From: Candidatus Binatia bacterium | GTDB lineage: Bacteria > Vulcanimicrobiota > Vulcanimicrobiia > Vulcanimicrobiales > Vulcanimicrobiaceae | Assembly (NCBI GenBank): GCA_035541935.1 | Contig: DATKMJ010000009.1 | Location: 1-32,547, forward strand | Reading direction: 5' to 3' | Length of the DNA stretch: 32,547 bases | Shown: positions 1,666 to 7,628 of the stretch, piece after piece | Layout: each line of letters opens with the position of its first letter | Numbering within the stretch: the first letter of the stretch is position 1 | Position numbers and translations under genes: made by a program | Notes under the pieces: generated by a model | The model's database searches: none | What the model was told of the DNA's origin: nothing | The model's input: the letters and a program-made list of their open reading frames with translations, nothing else

Positions 1666-3786
1666 TTACGGCGGCGCGTCGGAGGGTGACGCCGAGGGCG
1701 ACGGCGGCTGCGAGGGCAGCGGCGAATCGGTGGCCTGCGCCGGAATCGCGTCGGGCGGGCTCGCATACGCGGGTGGGACCGTCGGCTGCGGGAGCGCCGC
1801 GGCCGCGCGTTGCACCGCTTCGTCTTCCTCCGCGTATGCGTCCATCGGCTTCCCGCACGAATCCGCTTCGGTTCCCTTCAGATAGTACTCGCGGCCGTGG
1901 CCGCAGTTGAGCTTTGCGACCTCGTCGGAGGGGAACGGAAAGTCGTGCGGCGGCGTACCCGCGAGCGCGGCCTTCATGAAGCGCGCCCAGATCCGCGCGG
2001 GAATGTTTCCGCCATACGACTCGACCATCGGCCTGTAGTCGTCGTTGCCGAGCCATACCGCGGCGACGAGGTCGGGCGTGTAGCCGACGAACCACGCGTC
2101 GCGGAAATCCGAGGTCGTGCCGGTCTTGCCGGCCGCGGGGCGTCCGATCACGGCATTCGGGTATCCCGTGCCGTGCTTAATCACGTCCTCGAGCATCGAG
2201 GTCATGATATATGCCGTCCCAGCGCTCACGACGTCGTTCGCCTGCGGAAAGCGATTGTCGAGCAGAACGCCGCCGAGCGAGTCCTTGACGAGGCGAAACG
2301 GCGTCGGATCTACGTGCAATCCTTGATTCGCGAGGGTGGAGTAGCCGCTGGCCTGATCGAGGACGGAGACGACCGACGATCCGAGCGCGAGCGAGAGGTT
2401 CGCTTCGAGCGGCGCGGTGACGCCCATCCGATGCGCGTAATCGATCACCCGATCGAGGCCGACGCGGTCGGCGAGCTTTACCGCGACGACGTTGCGCGAG
2501 AGCGTCAATGCCTCGCGCAGCGTGATCGCCCCGATGTAGCGATGATCGTCGTCCTGCGGCGACCAATAGGTGCCGTCGCCCATCGGGTAACTCACCGCGG
2601 TATCGTCAATGATCGTCGAGGCCGGCATGCCGGAATCGATCGCCGCCGTGTAATCGTAGATCTTGAACGACGAACCCGGTTGGCGCAGCGCCTGCCACGC
2701 GCGGTTGTACTGATTCGCTAGGGAGAACCCCGCGCCGCCGACCATCGCGAGAATCTCACCGGTCGAGGGACGCAGCACGACGATCGCCGCCTGATGCGCT
2801 CCGATGCCCTCGGCGATCGCCTGCCCCACGCCCCACGTGACGGCCTCCTGCGCGAGCTGCTGCATGCGCGTATCGAGCGTCGTGTAGACTTGCATCCCGC
2901 CCTGCTCGACCGCGCTGTCGCCGAAGAGGCGCTGCAGTTGCGCGATCGCGTAGGTCGTGAAGTACGGATACCGGTAGCCCTGCAGCCCCGAGGGCTGCGG
3001 CGGGATCAGCCCGAGCGGACTTTGGTAGGCAAGCTCGGCGTCGCCGCGAGTGATGTAGCCGCTCTCGACCATCCGGTCGAGAACGTGGCGCTCGCGGTCG
3101 CGCGCGAGGTCGAGGTTCGCGAAGGGCGAGTAATCCGACGGCGCGGCGACGATGCCGGCGAGCATCGCAGCCTGCGCGAGCGTCAGCTTCTCGACGCCGT
3201 GCCCGAAATACGTGTGGGCGGCCGCATCCACGCCGTAGGCGCCGGCGCCGAGATAGATAATGTTGAGGTAGCGCTCGAGGATCTCGTCCTTCGTGTAGTA
3301 GCGCTCGATCTCGACCGCAAGCAGCGCCTCTTGCACCTTGCGGGAGATCGAGACCTCGTCGTTGAGGAAGAGCCGCCGCGCCAGCTGCTGCGTGATCGTC
3401 GAGGCGCCCTGGAACTGCTGATGCGTCAGGTCGGCGAACGCGGCGCGCACGATGCTGCCGAAGTCTACGCCGTGGTGGACGTAAAAATTGTGGTCTTCGT
3501 TGGCGATGAAGGCCTGACGCACCATGACGGGCACGCGCGAGATCGGAACCCAGACGCGATTCTCTTTGTAGACCGCGGCGAGTTGCGTACCGTCGCGGGC
3601 GAAGATGCGCGTCGAACTGGCCGGCTGATAATCGGCCATCCGATTGATGTCGGGGAGGTTGCGCGCGTACGAGGCGACCATGCCCGCCACCGATCCCAGC
3701 GTGAAGAGGACGAGCATCAGCAGCGCGATTCCGATGCCGCGCGCGATGCGTCCGGCTCGGCCGACCTTACGTTTTTGCGTTGACAA
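1666..3786 (-). CDS. Bifunctional penicillin-binding protein 1A (transglycosylase/transpeptidase)
   Basis: A class A PBP of 706 residues. It has a short basic cytoplasmic tail, one membrane anchor (about 18-40), and a GT51 domain with catalytic E97 in NEDHNFYVHHGVD and GASTITQQLARR (127-137). The transpeptidase domain has the motifs SSFK (active serine 372), SRN (430-432) and KTGTT (554-558). The C-terminus is a Pro/Ser/Ala-rich low-complexity tail of about 45 residues. It polymerises lipid II and cross-links peptidoglycan on the outer face of the inner membrane. The start is TTG, overlapping the nusB end by 20 bp; no better start lies near. It sits between nusB and xseA, which is not its usual place. 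Whether it equals PBP1a or another class A paralogue cannot be told. Confidence 0.95.
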   Translation of the reverse strand: MSTQKRKVGRAGRIARGIGIALLMLVLFTLGSVAGMVASYARNLPDINRMADYQPASSTRIFARDGTQLAAVYKENRVWVPISRVPVMVRQAFIANEDHNFYVHHGVDFGSIVRAAFADLTHQQFQGASTITQQLARRLFLNDEVSISRKVQEALLAVEIERYYTKDEILERYLNIIYLGAGAYGVDAAAHTYFGHGVEKLTLAQAAMLAGIVAAPSDYSPFANLDLARDRERHVLDRMVESGYITRGDAELAYQSPLGLIPPQPSGLQGYRYPYFTTYAIAQLQRLFGDSAVEQGGMQVYTTLDTRMQQLAQEAVTWGVGQAIAEGIGAHQAAIVVLRPSTGEILAMVGGAGFSLANQYNRAWQALRQPGSSFKIYDYTAAIDSGMPASTIIDDTAVSYPMGDGTYWSPQDDDHRYIGAITLREALTLSRNVVAVKLADRVGLDRVIDYAHRMGVTAPLEANLSLALGSSVVSVLDQASGYSTLANQGLHVDPTPFRLVKDSLGGVLLDNRFPQANDVVSAGTAYIMTSMLEDVIKHGTGYPNAVIGRPAAGKTGTTSDFRDAWFVGYTPDLVAAVWLGNDDYRPMVESYGGNIPARIWARFMKAALAGTPPHDFPFPSDEVAKLNCGHGREYYLKGTEADSCGKPMDAYAEEDEAVQRAAAALPQPTVPPAYASPPDAIPAQATDSPLPSQPPSPSASPSDAPP

Positions 3787-4165
3787 CGGCGCTGAGCACT
3801 CCGTTGACGAAACGTCCGGAGTCCTCGGTCGAGAAACGCTTCGCCAGCGCGACCGCTTCGTTGATCGCGACGGCCGGCGGCGTCTCCGGACGGCAGTGCA
3901 GCTCGAATGTAGCCATTTCCAATAAGAGCCGGTCGATCGTAGGCAGGCGTTCGATCGCCCAGCCCTCCAGGAGCGGCGTCACGACGCGATCGGCCTCTTG
4001 TGCGTATTCGAGCGTGCCCAGCGCGAGTTCCTCGACGAAGGCTCGCTGTTCCGCATCGGCGTCCTCACCGACGATCTCGCTGACCGCCTCGCGCGGCTCG
4101 CGGCTTCCGATCGCGACGGAGTAGAGCACCTGCAGCGCCTGTTCGCGCGCGACGCGGCGAGTCAT
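3767..4165 (-). CDS. nusB: Transcription antitermination factor NusB
   Basis: A 132-residue all-helical protein of typical NusB size. It starts MTRRVAREQALQVLYS, has the IDRLLLEMATFEL helix, and ends with the family signature AINEAVALAKRFSTEDSGRFVNGVL. NusB pairs with S10 (NusE) at boxA RNA to prevent premature termination in rRNA operons. The ATG overlaps the accC stop (ATGA). The accC-nusB-(PBP)-xseA order is the common Gram-positive cluster with a PBP inserted. Confidence 0.96.
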   Translation of the reverse strand: MTRRVAREQALQVLYSVAIGSREPREAVSEIVGEDADAEQRAFVEELALGTLEYAQEADRVVTPLLEGWAIERLPTIDRLLLEMATFELHCRPETPPAVAINEAVALAKRFSTEDSGRFVNGVLSAVVNAKT

Positions 4166-5550
4166 CGCCGCGCCGCCCGCGCCGCCGGCGCCGCCGCGCT
4201 CTTCTCACGCAGCGATGCGAGATAGTTCGGCATGAACTCGACGTCGTAGCGCCCTTTTCGGAATGCGGGTGCGGCGAGGATCTCGAGGCAGACGCCGATC
4301 GTCGTACTGACGCCCTCGACGAGCGTCTCGCGCAGCGCGCGCTCCATCCGCGCGATCGCGACGTCGCGCGTGTCGCCGAACGCGACGACCTTGGCGATCA
4401 TCGAGTCGTAGTACGGCGGAATGGACGCGCCGGCATAGAGGTGCGTGTCGACGCGGATTCCGGGCCCGCCCGGGAAGACGAGTTTCGAAACCGTCCCCGC
4501 GGCGGGCGCGAAGTTGTTACGGGGATCTTCGGCGTTGATCCGGCACTCGATCGCGTGGCCTCGCGAGGCGAGGTCGCGCTGGACGTAGCCGAGCTGCTCG
4601 CCCGAGGCGATGCGAATCTGCTCCTTGACGAGATCGATGTTGTAGACCATCTCGGTGACGGGATGCTCGACCTGAATTCGCGTGTTCATCTCCATGAAGT
4701 ACGCGTCGTCGCCCGCGACGAGAAACTCGATCGTCCCCGCGTTCGTGTACCCGACCCCGCGCGACGCGCGCAGCGCCATCTCGTGGAGCTTGTTGCGCGT
4801 CCGGTCGTTGAGATTCGGGGCGGGCGTCTCTTCGATGAGCTTCTGATGCGCGGGTTTCTGAATCGAGCAGTCGCGCTCGCCGAGGTGAACGATGGTTCCG
4901 AACTCGTCGCCGAGCACTTGCACCTCGACGTGGCGCGGCGAGCGAATCAGCCGCTCGGCGTAAACGCGCCCGTCCTTGAAGCTCGCCTCGGCTTCCGCGG
5001 TCGCTCCCGCGAAAGCCCGCGGCAACTCGCTCGCGTCGTTGACGACGCGCATGCCGCGCCCGCCGCCGCCGGCCGTCGCTTTGAGCAGGAGCGGATAGCC
5101 AATCTTCTTCGCCGCGTCGCGCGCCTCTTCGACCGAGCCGAGCACTTCGCTGCCCGGCGTCGTCGGCACGCCGGCCTCGCGGACGACGCGCTTCGCCGAT
5201 GCCTTGTCGCCCATGAGCGCGATGACGCTCGGCTTCGGCCCGATGAACGTGAGCCCGTGATCGGTGCAGATCTCGGCAAAGCGCGAGTTCTCCGCCAAGA
5301 AGCCGTAGCCGGGATGGATCGCATCGCAGTTGGTGACGAGCGCGGTCGAGATGATGTTCGGAATGTTGAGATACGAGCGGCCCGCCGGACCCGGACCGAC
5401 GCAGAAGGCTTCGTCGGCCTGGCGCACGTGCAGCGAGTCGCGGTCCGCCTCGGAGAAGATCGCGACCGTGCGAACGCCGAGCTCTTGGCAGGCCCGGTTG
5501 ATACGGAGCGCGATCTCGCCACGATTGGCGATCAATACCTTGCGAAAGAT
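4162..5550 (-). CDS. accC: Biotin carboxylase subunit of acetyl-CoA carboxylase
   Basis: About 460 residues of biotin carboxylase: IANRGEIALRI (N-terminal domain), HPGYGFLAEN, the ATP-grasp glycine loop KATAGGGGRGMR, ERDCSIQKPAHQKLIEE, and the catalytic EMNTRIQVEHPVTEM. It carboxylates biotin on the carrier protein with ATP and bicarbonate in the first step of fatty-acid synthesis. The reading frame upstream of the first usable codon (TTG at 5535) encodes FRKVL, the conserved AccC beginning. I therefore extended the gene to an ATC codon at 5550, which has a GGAG 8 bases before it (5559-5562). The TTG has no well-placed Shine-Dalgarno. The start is thus unproven. The gene lies just after the FolK/AccB-like fusion. 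Confidence 0.94.
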   Translation of the reverse strand: MFRKVLIANRGEIALRINRACQELGVRTVAIFSEADRDSLHVRQADEAFCVGPGPAGRSYLNIPNIISTALVTNCDAIHPGYGFLAENSRFAEICTDHGLTFIGPKPSVIALMGDKASAKRVVREAGVPTTPGSEVLGSVEEARDAAKKIGYPLLLKATAGGGGRGMRVVNDASELPRAFAGATAEAEASFKDGRVYAERLIRSPRHVEVQVLGDEFGTIVHLGERDCSIQKPAHQKLIEETPAPNLNDRTRNKLHEMALRASRGVGYTNAGTIEFLVAGDDAYFMEMNTRIQVEHPVTEMVYNIDLVKEQIRIASGEQLGYVQRDLASRGHAIECRINAEDPRNNFAPAAGTVSKLVFPGGPGIRVDTHLYAGASIPPYYDSMIAKVVAFGDTRDVAIARMERALRETLVEGVSTTIGVCLEILAAPAFRKGRYDVEFMPNYLASLREKSAAAPAARAARR

Positions 5551-5551
5551 G

Positions 5552-6448
5552 TCAGCCGCTCCGTGCGATCAGAAAGAGGGGTTGGCCGTACTCGACCGGC
5601 GTTCCGTCGGCGACGGGCATCGAGACGAGGCGGCCTGCGCCCATGCTGTGCACCGGCGTGCGAATGCCGAGCGCCTCGATGTAACCCAGCTCGCGGTCGG
5701 GCTCGACGAGATCGTCGACGATCGGCGCGGGACGGCTCAGATGAAAGATTCCGACGAGATCGGCTTTGACCGAGTCGACCCGCGCGGCCGTCGCACCAGC
5801 CGTCGCCGGTTCGGCCGCCGCGCGCTCGCGACGATTCGCGGGGATGCCGGCCACCTCGATCTCGTCGCCCTCGCGAGCGATTCGCACGCGCACCGCGTCG
5901 GTCTCCGCGAGAAACTGCGCGAGCGCACGTACGCGTTCGGCCGCGTCGAGCGATCGTTCTTCCGGCATGGTCGTTACGAGTTCGCGCTCGACGGCGACGA
6001 CCCCCGCGAGCTCCGACGAATCCAACGCGTCGCGCAGCGGTTCGAAGCGAGCGTCTACCTCGGCCAAGGGAACGAGCACGAAAGCGCGCTCGCGCAGACG
6101 CGGATGCGGAACCTGTAAGCCGTCTTCGTCGACGCGCAGGTCGTCGTAGAGCAGCAGATCGAGGTCTACGACGCGCGGCCCCCAGCGTTCGCCCGGCACT
6201 CTCCCCATCGCCCGCTCGATCGTCTGCAGCCGCTCGAGCAACGCGCGCGGCGTCAGCCGCGTCTCCACGACGGCGACGGCGTTGACGAACGCGGGTTGAT
6301 CGCGCACTCCCCACGGCTGAGTTTGAAAGAGCGACGATCGCGCGACGACCGCTCCCGCGCCGCCGAGCGCGGCGATCGCGCCTTCGACCGTCGCGATTCG
6401 ATCGCCGAGATTCGCGCCGATGCCGACGTAGGCGCGATGCGCCGTCAC
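5552..6448 (-). CDS. folK: FolK fused to an AccB-like biotinyl domain lacking the acceptor lysine
   Basis: One open frame of 298 residues. Residues 1 to about 150 are 6-hydroxymethyl-7,8-dihydropterin pyrophosphokinase: AYVGIGANLGDR, TQPWGVRDQPAFVNAV, then GPRVVDLDLLLYDD and PHPRLRERAFVLVPL. It makes the pyrophosphate ester used by FolP. Residues 161-298 resemble AccB, the biotin carboxyl carrier protein: an N-terminal helix (RVRALAQFLAETD) and strand (VRVRIAREGDEIEV), a linker, VKADLVGIFH, and a C-terminal hammerhead ending GTPVEYGQPLFLI. Where AccB has EAMKM, this reads EALGI, so Gly261 replaces the biotinylated lysine. Start is GTG overlapping the folB stop. An internal ATG (5968) could yield the second domain alone but has no clear ribosome site. 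Its place before accC is that of accB. Confidence 0.9.
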   Translation of the reverse strand: MTAHRAYVGIGANLGDRIATVEGAIAALGGAGAVVARSSLFQTQPWGVRDQPAFVNAVAVVETRLTPRALLERLQTIERAMGRVPGERWGPRVVDLDLLLYDDLRVDEDGLQVPHPRLRERAFVLVPLAEVDARFEPLRDALDSSELAGVVAVERELVTTMPEERSLDAAERVRALAQFLAETDAVRVRIAREGDEIEVAGIPANRRERAAAEPATAGATAARVDSVKADLVGIFHLSRPAPIVDDLVEPDRELGYIEALGIRTPVHSMGAGRLVSMPVADGTPVEYGQPLFLIARSG

Positions 6449-6813
6449 GAACGCGCCGTGTAGGCCGGATTGCCGCGCGCGAGCGTTATCGAAGGCGTCG
6501 CGCCCCCGAGGATGCCCGGCTTGCCGATCGTGATCTCGGCGGCGGCGACGCGCCGATCCTCGAAGACGATCTCGAGCAGCGAGGCCGCGAGCCGTTCGAG
6601 CAGCGCGTGCGACTCGGTCCCGACCGCGCGCACGATCCTTTCGTGAAGCGCCGCGTAATCGAGCGTCTGCGAGAGATCGTCGCTGCGCGCGGCGGCGCTC
6701 AGGTCAATCTCGACGCTGAGGTCTATCGCAAACGGCTGGCGCCGCTCGCGTTCGCCTGCGTCGGCGCCGTGGCGCCCGTACGCACTGATGCCGCGCAGCG
6801 TTATTCTGTCCAT
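6445..6813 (-). CDS. folB: Dihydroneopterin aldolase
   Basis: A 122-residue protein of normal FolB length: MDRITLRGISAYGRHG at the start, TLDYAALHERI and the ERLAASLLEIVF helix (the catalytic region contains the conserved glutamate), ending AEITIGKPGI. FolB cleaves dihydroneopterin to 6-hydroxymethyl-7,8-dihydropterin and glycolaldehyde, the substrate step before FolK. The ATG was chosen because it gives the canonical N-terminus. It overlaps the end of folP by 13 bp, and its stop overlaps the folK GTG. Confidence 0.93.
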   Translation of the reverse strand: MDRITLRGISAYGRHGADAGERERRQPFAIDLSVEIDLSAAARSDDLSQTLDYAALHERIVRAVGTESHALLERLAASLLEIVFEDRRVAAAEITIGKPGILGGATPSITLARGNPAYTARS

Positions 6814-7628
6814 CGTTGCGGCCTCCAACCGCGCACGACCGCGTCCGCCACCGCGATCGCGTCGCGCGCCGCGGCGACGTCGTGAACGCGAACGACGTCG
6901 ATGCCGGCGCGAACGGCGAGCGCGGTCGTCGCAACCGTGCCGTAGACGCGATCGGCCGGCTCCCGCCCGGTGAGCTTGCCGATCGTGGACTTGCGCGAGG
7001 CTCCGATCATCGTCGGAAATCCGAGCGCGACGAGGCGCTCGAGCGATCCGAGCACCTCGAGGTTCTGATCGGCCGTCTTTCCGAAGCCGATGCCGGGATC
7101 CAGGACGATGCGCTCGCGCGCGATGCCGCGCTGCATCGCGCGCCGCGCGCACTCGTCGAGATAGCGCAGCACCTCGTCCATCACCGGGACGTCGTACCGC
7201 GTCGTCGCCTGGTTGTGCATCGCGACGACGGGCATCGAGAGCTCGGCGGCGACGTCGAGCAGTTCGTCCGAAGCGCCCCAGACGGAGTTGACGGCGTCCG
7301 CGCCCGCGGCGCGCGCGGCGCGCGCCACCTCGGGCTTATACGTGTCCACCGAGATCGGCGCGTTCGGAAGCTGCGAACGAATCGCCGCGATGACCGGCGC
7401 GATCCGCGCGATCTCGACGGCGGCGGCGACCGGGCGATGACCGGGGCGCGTCGACTCGCCGCCGACGTCCAAGACGTCGGCGCCCGCCTGCCATTGCGCT
7501 ATCGCGTGGCGCGCCGCCTCGGCGGGCGTCTCGATTCCGTCGCCCGAGAACGAGTCGGGCGTCACGTTGACGATCGCCATGACGTAGGTGCGAGCGCCCC
7601 ACGTCAGACCATCGAAAGCACGTACCAT
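6801..7628 (-). CDS. folP: Dihydropteroate synthase
   Basis: A 275-residue TIM-barrel enzyme with the full set of DHPS motifs: AIVNVTPDSFSGDG, DVLDVGGESTRPG, ISVDTYKPEVA, the AVNSVWG strand, DPGIGFGKTADQNL and GASRKSTIGKLTG. It condenses p-aminobenzoate with hydroxymethyldihydropterin pyrophosphate and is the sulfonamide target. The chosen ATG (MVRAFDGLTWG) places about 16 residues before the first motif, normal for the family, and overlaps the folC end by 25 bp. It forms a folate block with folC, folB and folK. Confidence 0.95.
   Translation of the reverse strand: MVRAFDGLTWGARTYVMAIVNVTPDSFSGDGIETPAEAARHAIAQWQAGADVLDVGGESTRPGHRPVAAAVEIARIAPVIAAIRSQLPNAPISVDTYKPEVARAARAAGADAVNSVWGASDELLDVAAELSMPVVAMHNQATTRYDVPVMDEVLRYLDECARRAMQRGIARERIVLDPGIGFGKTADQNLEVLGSLERLVALGFPTMIGASRKSTIGKLTGREPADRVYGTVATTALAVRAGIDVVRVHDVAAARDAIAVADAVVRGWRPQRWTE

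Follow-up and report, generated by a model that had tools for sequence, protein, structure and literature searches.

An accC-linked AccB paralogue without the biotinyl-lysine, a candidate non-catalytic subunit of acetyl-CoA carboxylase in several bacterial phyla

We report that the gene directly preceding accC in a 32,547-nucleotide stretch of DNA from a member of the Eremiobacterota (the window) encodes an AccB-like domain, here designated X, in which glycine takes the place of the biotinyl-lysine. X represents a real AccB-like family, with a confidently modeled barrel and under purifying selection. The linkage of this family to accC, the absent lysine, the presence of a second AccB in the same genome, and the repeated loss of the lysine are established by the data below. 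On balance, we consider it probable that X is a lysine-less AccB paralogue serving as a non-catalytic, assembly-aiding subunit of acetyl-CoA carboxylase. With the same moderate confidence, we propose that several phyla employ a dedicated non-biotinylated, AccB-derived subunit beside AccC, having repeatedly lost the biotinyl-lysine in convergence with the BADC proteins of plants.

X forms the C-terminal part of a fused open reading frame, whose features and neighbors in the window are as follows.

5552 to 6448, minus strand: fused folK::X open reading frame, GTG start, TGA stop, 298 amino acids
5555 to 5968, minus strand: X, AccB-like domain without biotinyl-lysine, residues 161–298 of the fused frame
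5663 to 5677, minus strand: EALGI in place of EAMKM, within X
5666 to 5668, minus strand: codon of Gly261, in the biotinyl-lysine's place
6053 to 6430, minus strand: FolK (HPPK) domain, residues 7–132 (PF01288, 1.6e-39; TIGR01498, over cut-off)
4162 to 5550, minus strand: accC, biotin carboxylase (TIGR00514 equivalog, over cut-off)
5559 to 5562, minus strand: GGAG, Shine-Dalgarno-like, 8 nt before the most likely accC start, ATC
3767 to 4165, minus strand: nusB (PF01029, 1.1e-31)
6445 to 6813, minus strand: folB (PF02152, 1.1e-25)
6801 to 7622 (start approximate), minus strand: folP region, dihydropteroate synthase, an open reading frame with the MAIVNVTPDSF motif

In minus-strand order the genes run folP, folB, folK::X, accC, nusB, a penicillin-binding protein gene, and xseA, with a Mur-ligase-family gene, probably folC, preceding folP. 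A preliminary description of this DNA had given the coordinates of the fused frame correctly, naming no strand, and had placed X in the accB position ahead of accC and nusB, an arrangement borne out by the TIGR00514 and PF01029 matches. The FolK portion is a complete domain of the TIGR01498 family (142.5 bits, cut-off 54.1), and its conserved motifs are invariant in the alignment of fused orthologues.

Searched on its own, X scores 14 bits against the Pfam Biotin_lipoyl model, under the cut-off of 22.1, and 28.7 bits (1.6e-6) against the TIGR00531 model of BCCP, under the cut-off of 115.2. A profile built from 32 relatives of X and searched against PDB chains returned E. coli AccB as its top match (4hr7_B; 6e-29, residues 24–176), in an alignment that runs from the N-terminal region through to the end and sets the biotinyl-lysine column opposite the G of EALGI. 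The barrel is confident in an AlphaFold2 model of X (block means of at least 93 from residue 61 on), and the top fold matches of this model in the PDB are the biotinyl domain of E. coli AccB (1bdo) and Arabidopsis BCCP1 (9a87). AlphaFold2 applied to the whole fused protein gave a model of low confidence (mean pLDDT 51), which we left out of our conclusions. X thus has the architecture and fold of AccB, as judged by profile (4hr7_B) and model (1bdo), with a helix-strand N-terminus, a variable linker, and a biotinyl barrel in the same order and, like AccB, a place before accC. It differs from AccB/BCCP in lacking the lysine that a functional carrier bears in its (E)AMKM hairpin, in a "thumb" shorter by about five residues (SPDAKAF in E. 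coli), in falling far under the TIGR00531 cut-off, and in coexisting with a canonical AccB in the same genome. The preliminary description was therefore right to see an AccB-like domain without the biotin lysine; the gap-free alignment it claimed holds for the motif, where EALGI replaces EAMKM ungapped, but not for the domain overall, which misses the thumb residues.

Within the Eremiobacterota, the X profile has a match in 138 of 149 genomes (E ≤ 0.001), some of the weaker ones being canonical AccB instead. We read the residue at the lysine column in 92 distinct accC-linked copies from this phylum, and 85 lack lysine, with G in 69, R in 7, N in 7, and S in 2. The seven K copies belong mostly to one other family of the same class and carry a motif unlike a biotinylation site (GYIEALKVRTPV). 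All accC-linked copies read from the window's GTDB family and order have glycine, within the motif (Y/F)(V/I)E-x-LG(I/M)R, of which there are few variants; this recurrence removes the worry, raised in the preliminary description, that a sequencing error had erased a lysine. Several more positions of the barrel (V, G, R, E, L, F) are likewise fixed across 63 LG-type sequences, a set chosen by the LG motif, so that invariance of the motif itself there is not independent evidence. No alternative lysine is conserved among these 63 (best column, 35 of 63), and we rejected a biotin site shifted to another lysine of X on this ground. Among the closest same-genus pairs of X, dN/dS is 0.13–0.31. A further family of the phylum, f9 (G060–G063), apparently lacks X and has no clear canonical AccB.

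The preliminary description had predicted that a functional AccB must lie elsewhere, and the window's genome (2.41 Mb, listed as 99% complete) indeed encodes a separate lysine-bearing AccB, with the motif EAMKL, at G000:C67:36507-36932. AccA is encoded on C39 of the same genome (3e-130). Three biotin carboxylases were counted in a PF02785 census, two of them each fused to an EAMKM domain of its own; because the window's AccC is the only stand-alone one, it presumably loads the lysine-bearing AccB made elsewhere. Across the phylum, AccB copies unlinked to accC carry EAMK in 10 of 10 cases and in 27 of 27 further parsed loci, three more loci being unparsed by the pattern. About 126 of the 149 genomes have an evident canonical AccB, with a best E under 1e-20, and those without one are mostly, not always, incomplete drafts.

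Lysine-less relatives of X were also found in an Armatimonadota, an Elusimicrobia, and an unplaced bacterium, and genomes of Eremiobacterota, Armatimonadota, Elusimicrobiota, and the small phylum of "bacterium isolate Yes70-31" (L140; 19 genomes) typically carry two AccB-like genes. The X profile matches in 198 of 201 Armatimonadota genomes, about 173 of which have two or more matches at E ≤ 1e-6; the lysine column of 52 accC-linked copies, sampled partly by similarity to X and hence biased in their proportions, holds K in 25, G in 15, R in 7, and N, S, D, or H in 5 together. Several Armatimonadota (L227, L228, L229, L231) have a short gene between the AccB paralogue and accC that by eye resembles a pseudopilin or small membrane protein. 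Exactly two AccB-like matches occur in 77 of 80 Elusimicrobiota genomes, and the lysine is missing from 11 of 35 accC-linked copies and kept in 24. Most genomes in the phylum of L140 (L140/L276/L278-L282/L283-L302) have two AccB-like genes; four of seven accC-linked copies lack lysine, with G or D there in several members. As a control, 35 genomes drawn from about 20 other phyla typically have a single full-length AccB, and lysine is present in 65 of 65 accC-linked AccBs of about 20 other phyla. We counted at least 21 changes of lysine state on a tree computed with the motif columns left out; many of its branches are weakly supported, so this number is approximate, but several losses fall inside well-supported clades, for example those to R and Q in the accC-linked clade of Elusimicrobiota. 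By these sequence comparisons, an accC-linked, lysine-less AccB spans the window's phylum and recurs in at least three further phyla.

We propose that X is an ancient paralogue of AccB, no longer biotinylated, which would act as a non-catalytic subunit of the heteromeric acetyl-CoA carboxylase. Made beside AccC and retaining the N-terminal helix-strand segment and barrel of AccB, X most likely binds AccC, the biotinylated AccB made elsewhere, or both, and may help to build the AccC-AccB complex and set its stoichiometry, as plant BADC does. The N-terminal part of E. coli AccB is needed for AccC binding, and its counterpart is retained in X. Linkage to accC is no proof of binding; both physical binding to AccC or AccB and a role in assembly over one in inhibition are what we infer. 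The accC-linked copies that retain lysine in Armatimonadota (25 of 52) and Elusimicrobiota (24 of 35) count against a subunit role, and as some accC-linked copies keep it, loss of the lysine would be unnecessary for a role shared by all of them and could be incidental.

X might instead be a competitive inhibitor that displaces biotinylated AccB on AccC and so lowers carboxylase activity. Its fold and accC linkage would suit a decoy unable to carry CO2, and such a model exists for plant BADC, where it was the original one, as cited in PMC11926652. The same paper argues against the inhibitory model for BADC, and a fixed order directly before accC across the phylum is more what one expects of a constitutive subunit than of a tunable inhibitor; we regard inhibition as unlikely, if a serious contender. 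Less probable still is that X is a redundant former carrier drifting under weak constraint, its barrel retained only as a passive, non-regulatory filler in the AccC complex. The many substitutes for lysine across lineages (G, R, N, S, T, D, Q, H) and its retention in some of them would suit drift, but dozens of genomes in the window's family and order share an unvarying LG(I)R region, and the dN/dS values for X speak of constraint.

The fusion to FolK appears to be a separate matter. In the window's genus, X would have become joined in frame to FolK through loss of the folK stop codon. By a FolK motif test, at least 13 of the 16 loci from this genus have FolK and X in one open reading frame, the other three not being callable. 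Outside the genus, X is mostly free-standing before accC, often right after the folK stop; several loci have no folK nearby, and folate genes were not found beside X in the loci of other phyla. Because the fusion is mostly confined to one genus and X is mainly free-standing elsewhere, it looks like a local accident befalling a phylum-wide gene. All nine fused orthologues aligned keep Met161, the first residue of X, at the position where free-standing genes begin, which makes an internal start plausible; free X may additionally be made from the ATG at 5968. The genome encodes a second FolK/HPPK domain (G000:C34:19899-20285, corresponding to L014:5900-6286, minus strand; PF01288, 1.3e-25), so the fused FolK is possibly not its only one.

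The functional tie to folate synthesis that the preliminary description drew through FolK found no support in these comparisons, since the in-frame fusion is largely restricted to one genus. Of the two traits whose conservation in relatives it had made the measure of its reading, Gly is kept in the family and order, but the fusion is typical of the genus only; the lysine-less domain itself is retained in the great majority of accC-linked copies in the phylum (85 of 92). A folate-linked regulator, in which the fused FolK would detect precursors of folate and thereby control acetyl-CoA carboxylase, would accord with the fused frame in this genus and its folP-folB-folK neighbors; with X free-standing in most relatives, folK sometimes absent nearby, and a second HPPK in the genome, we consider it very improbable. 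The possibility that X is a pseudogene or arose through misassembly, to which its score under the Pfam cut-off might point, is already refuted by its open frame, purifying selection, and conservation through the phylum, which also uphold the earlier judgment that the domain is not decaying, and we give the idea practically no weight.

We also analyzed the junction between X and accC. The codon aligned with the initiator Met of AccC in the window is ATC (5550-5548, minus strand), and no ATG, GTG, or TTG lies between it and the upstream in-frame stop. The codon at this aligned position in 92 distinct Eremiobacterota loci is ATG in 28, GTG in 25, ATT in 18, ATC in 10, TTG in 6, GTT in 2, and another codon in 3. 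The 28 loci with ATT or ATC cluster in the window's family, its genus included (L017-L041, others), and have a Shine-Dalgarno-like site 8–9 nt upstream and, mostly, no nearby canonical in-frame start. A frameshift joining AccC to X was rejected, as the spacing from the stop of X to the start of AccC is too variable and a non-AUG start fits the frames better; RNA structure across the junction did not exceed that of shuffled sequences (z = 0.16). From the alignment, the ATC at 5550-5548 is most likely the accC start, and the pattern suggests that an AUU/AUC start is conserved in the window's family. AUU and AUC starts are rare in bacteria and known for infC, and such a start, if true, would reduce translation of AccC relative to X.

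Plant BADCs are AccB relatives without a biotinylation motif that bind biotin carboxylase and BCCP; their role is disputed, with some favoring an inhibitor and others an assembly "glue," and they have been called unique to the plant enzyme (PMC11926652). By description, X may be likened to them, as it too is a lysine-less AccB relative coexisting with a true, biotinylatable AccB, and it differs in being bacterial, accC-linked, and recurrent in several phyla. With the lysine absent, a functional AccB elsewhere, and conservation in relatives, the BADC-like carboxylase subunit envisaged in the preliminary description is plausible by analogy. Non-catalytic "glue" subunits are also found in certain bacterial acyl-CoA carboxylases (PMC11926652). 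The role proposed for X, a non-catalytic helper of carboxylase assembly, would resemble theirs. These are the epsilon subunits of actinobacteria, small proteins unrelated to AccB, whereas X is an AccB paralogue. Our literature search, with most subscription journals outside its coverage, found no paper on a lysine-less bacterial BCCP, and one on a Chloroflexus carboxylase (PMC11077971) does not concern such a protein. Together, our findings point to a non-catalytic enzyme subunit that has gone unrecognized and whose kind has until now been described in plants alone.

One caution is that the accC-linked gene in these phyla should not be annotated as a biotin carrier. At acetyl-CoA carboxylase, carbon becomes committed to fatty acids, and teaching presents the bacterial form as a four-subunit enzyme; if our reading is true, a conserved fifth, pseudo-carrier subunit over whole phyla would alter that picture. 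Bacteria that naturally carry this protein with or without the lysine would also offer simple systems for testing assembly versus inhibition as the role of BADC-type proteins.
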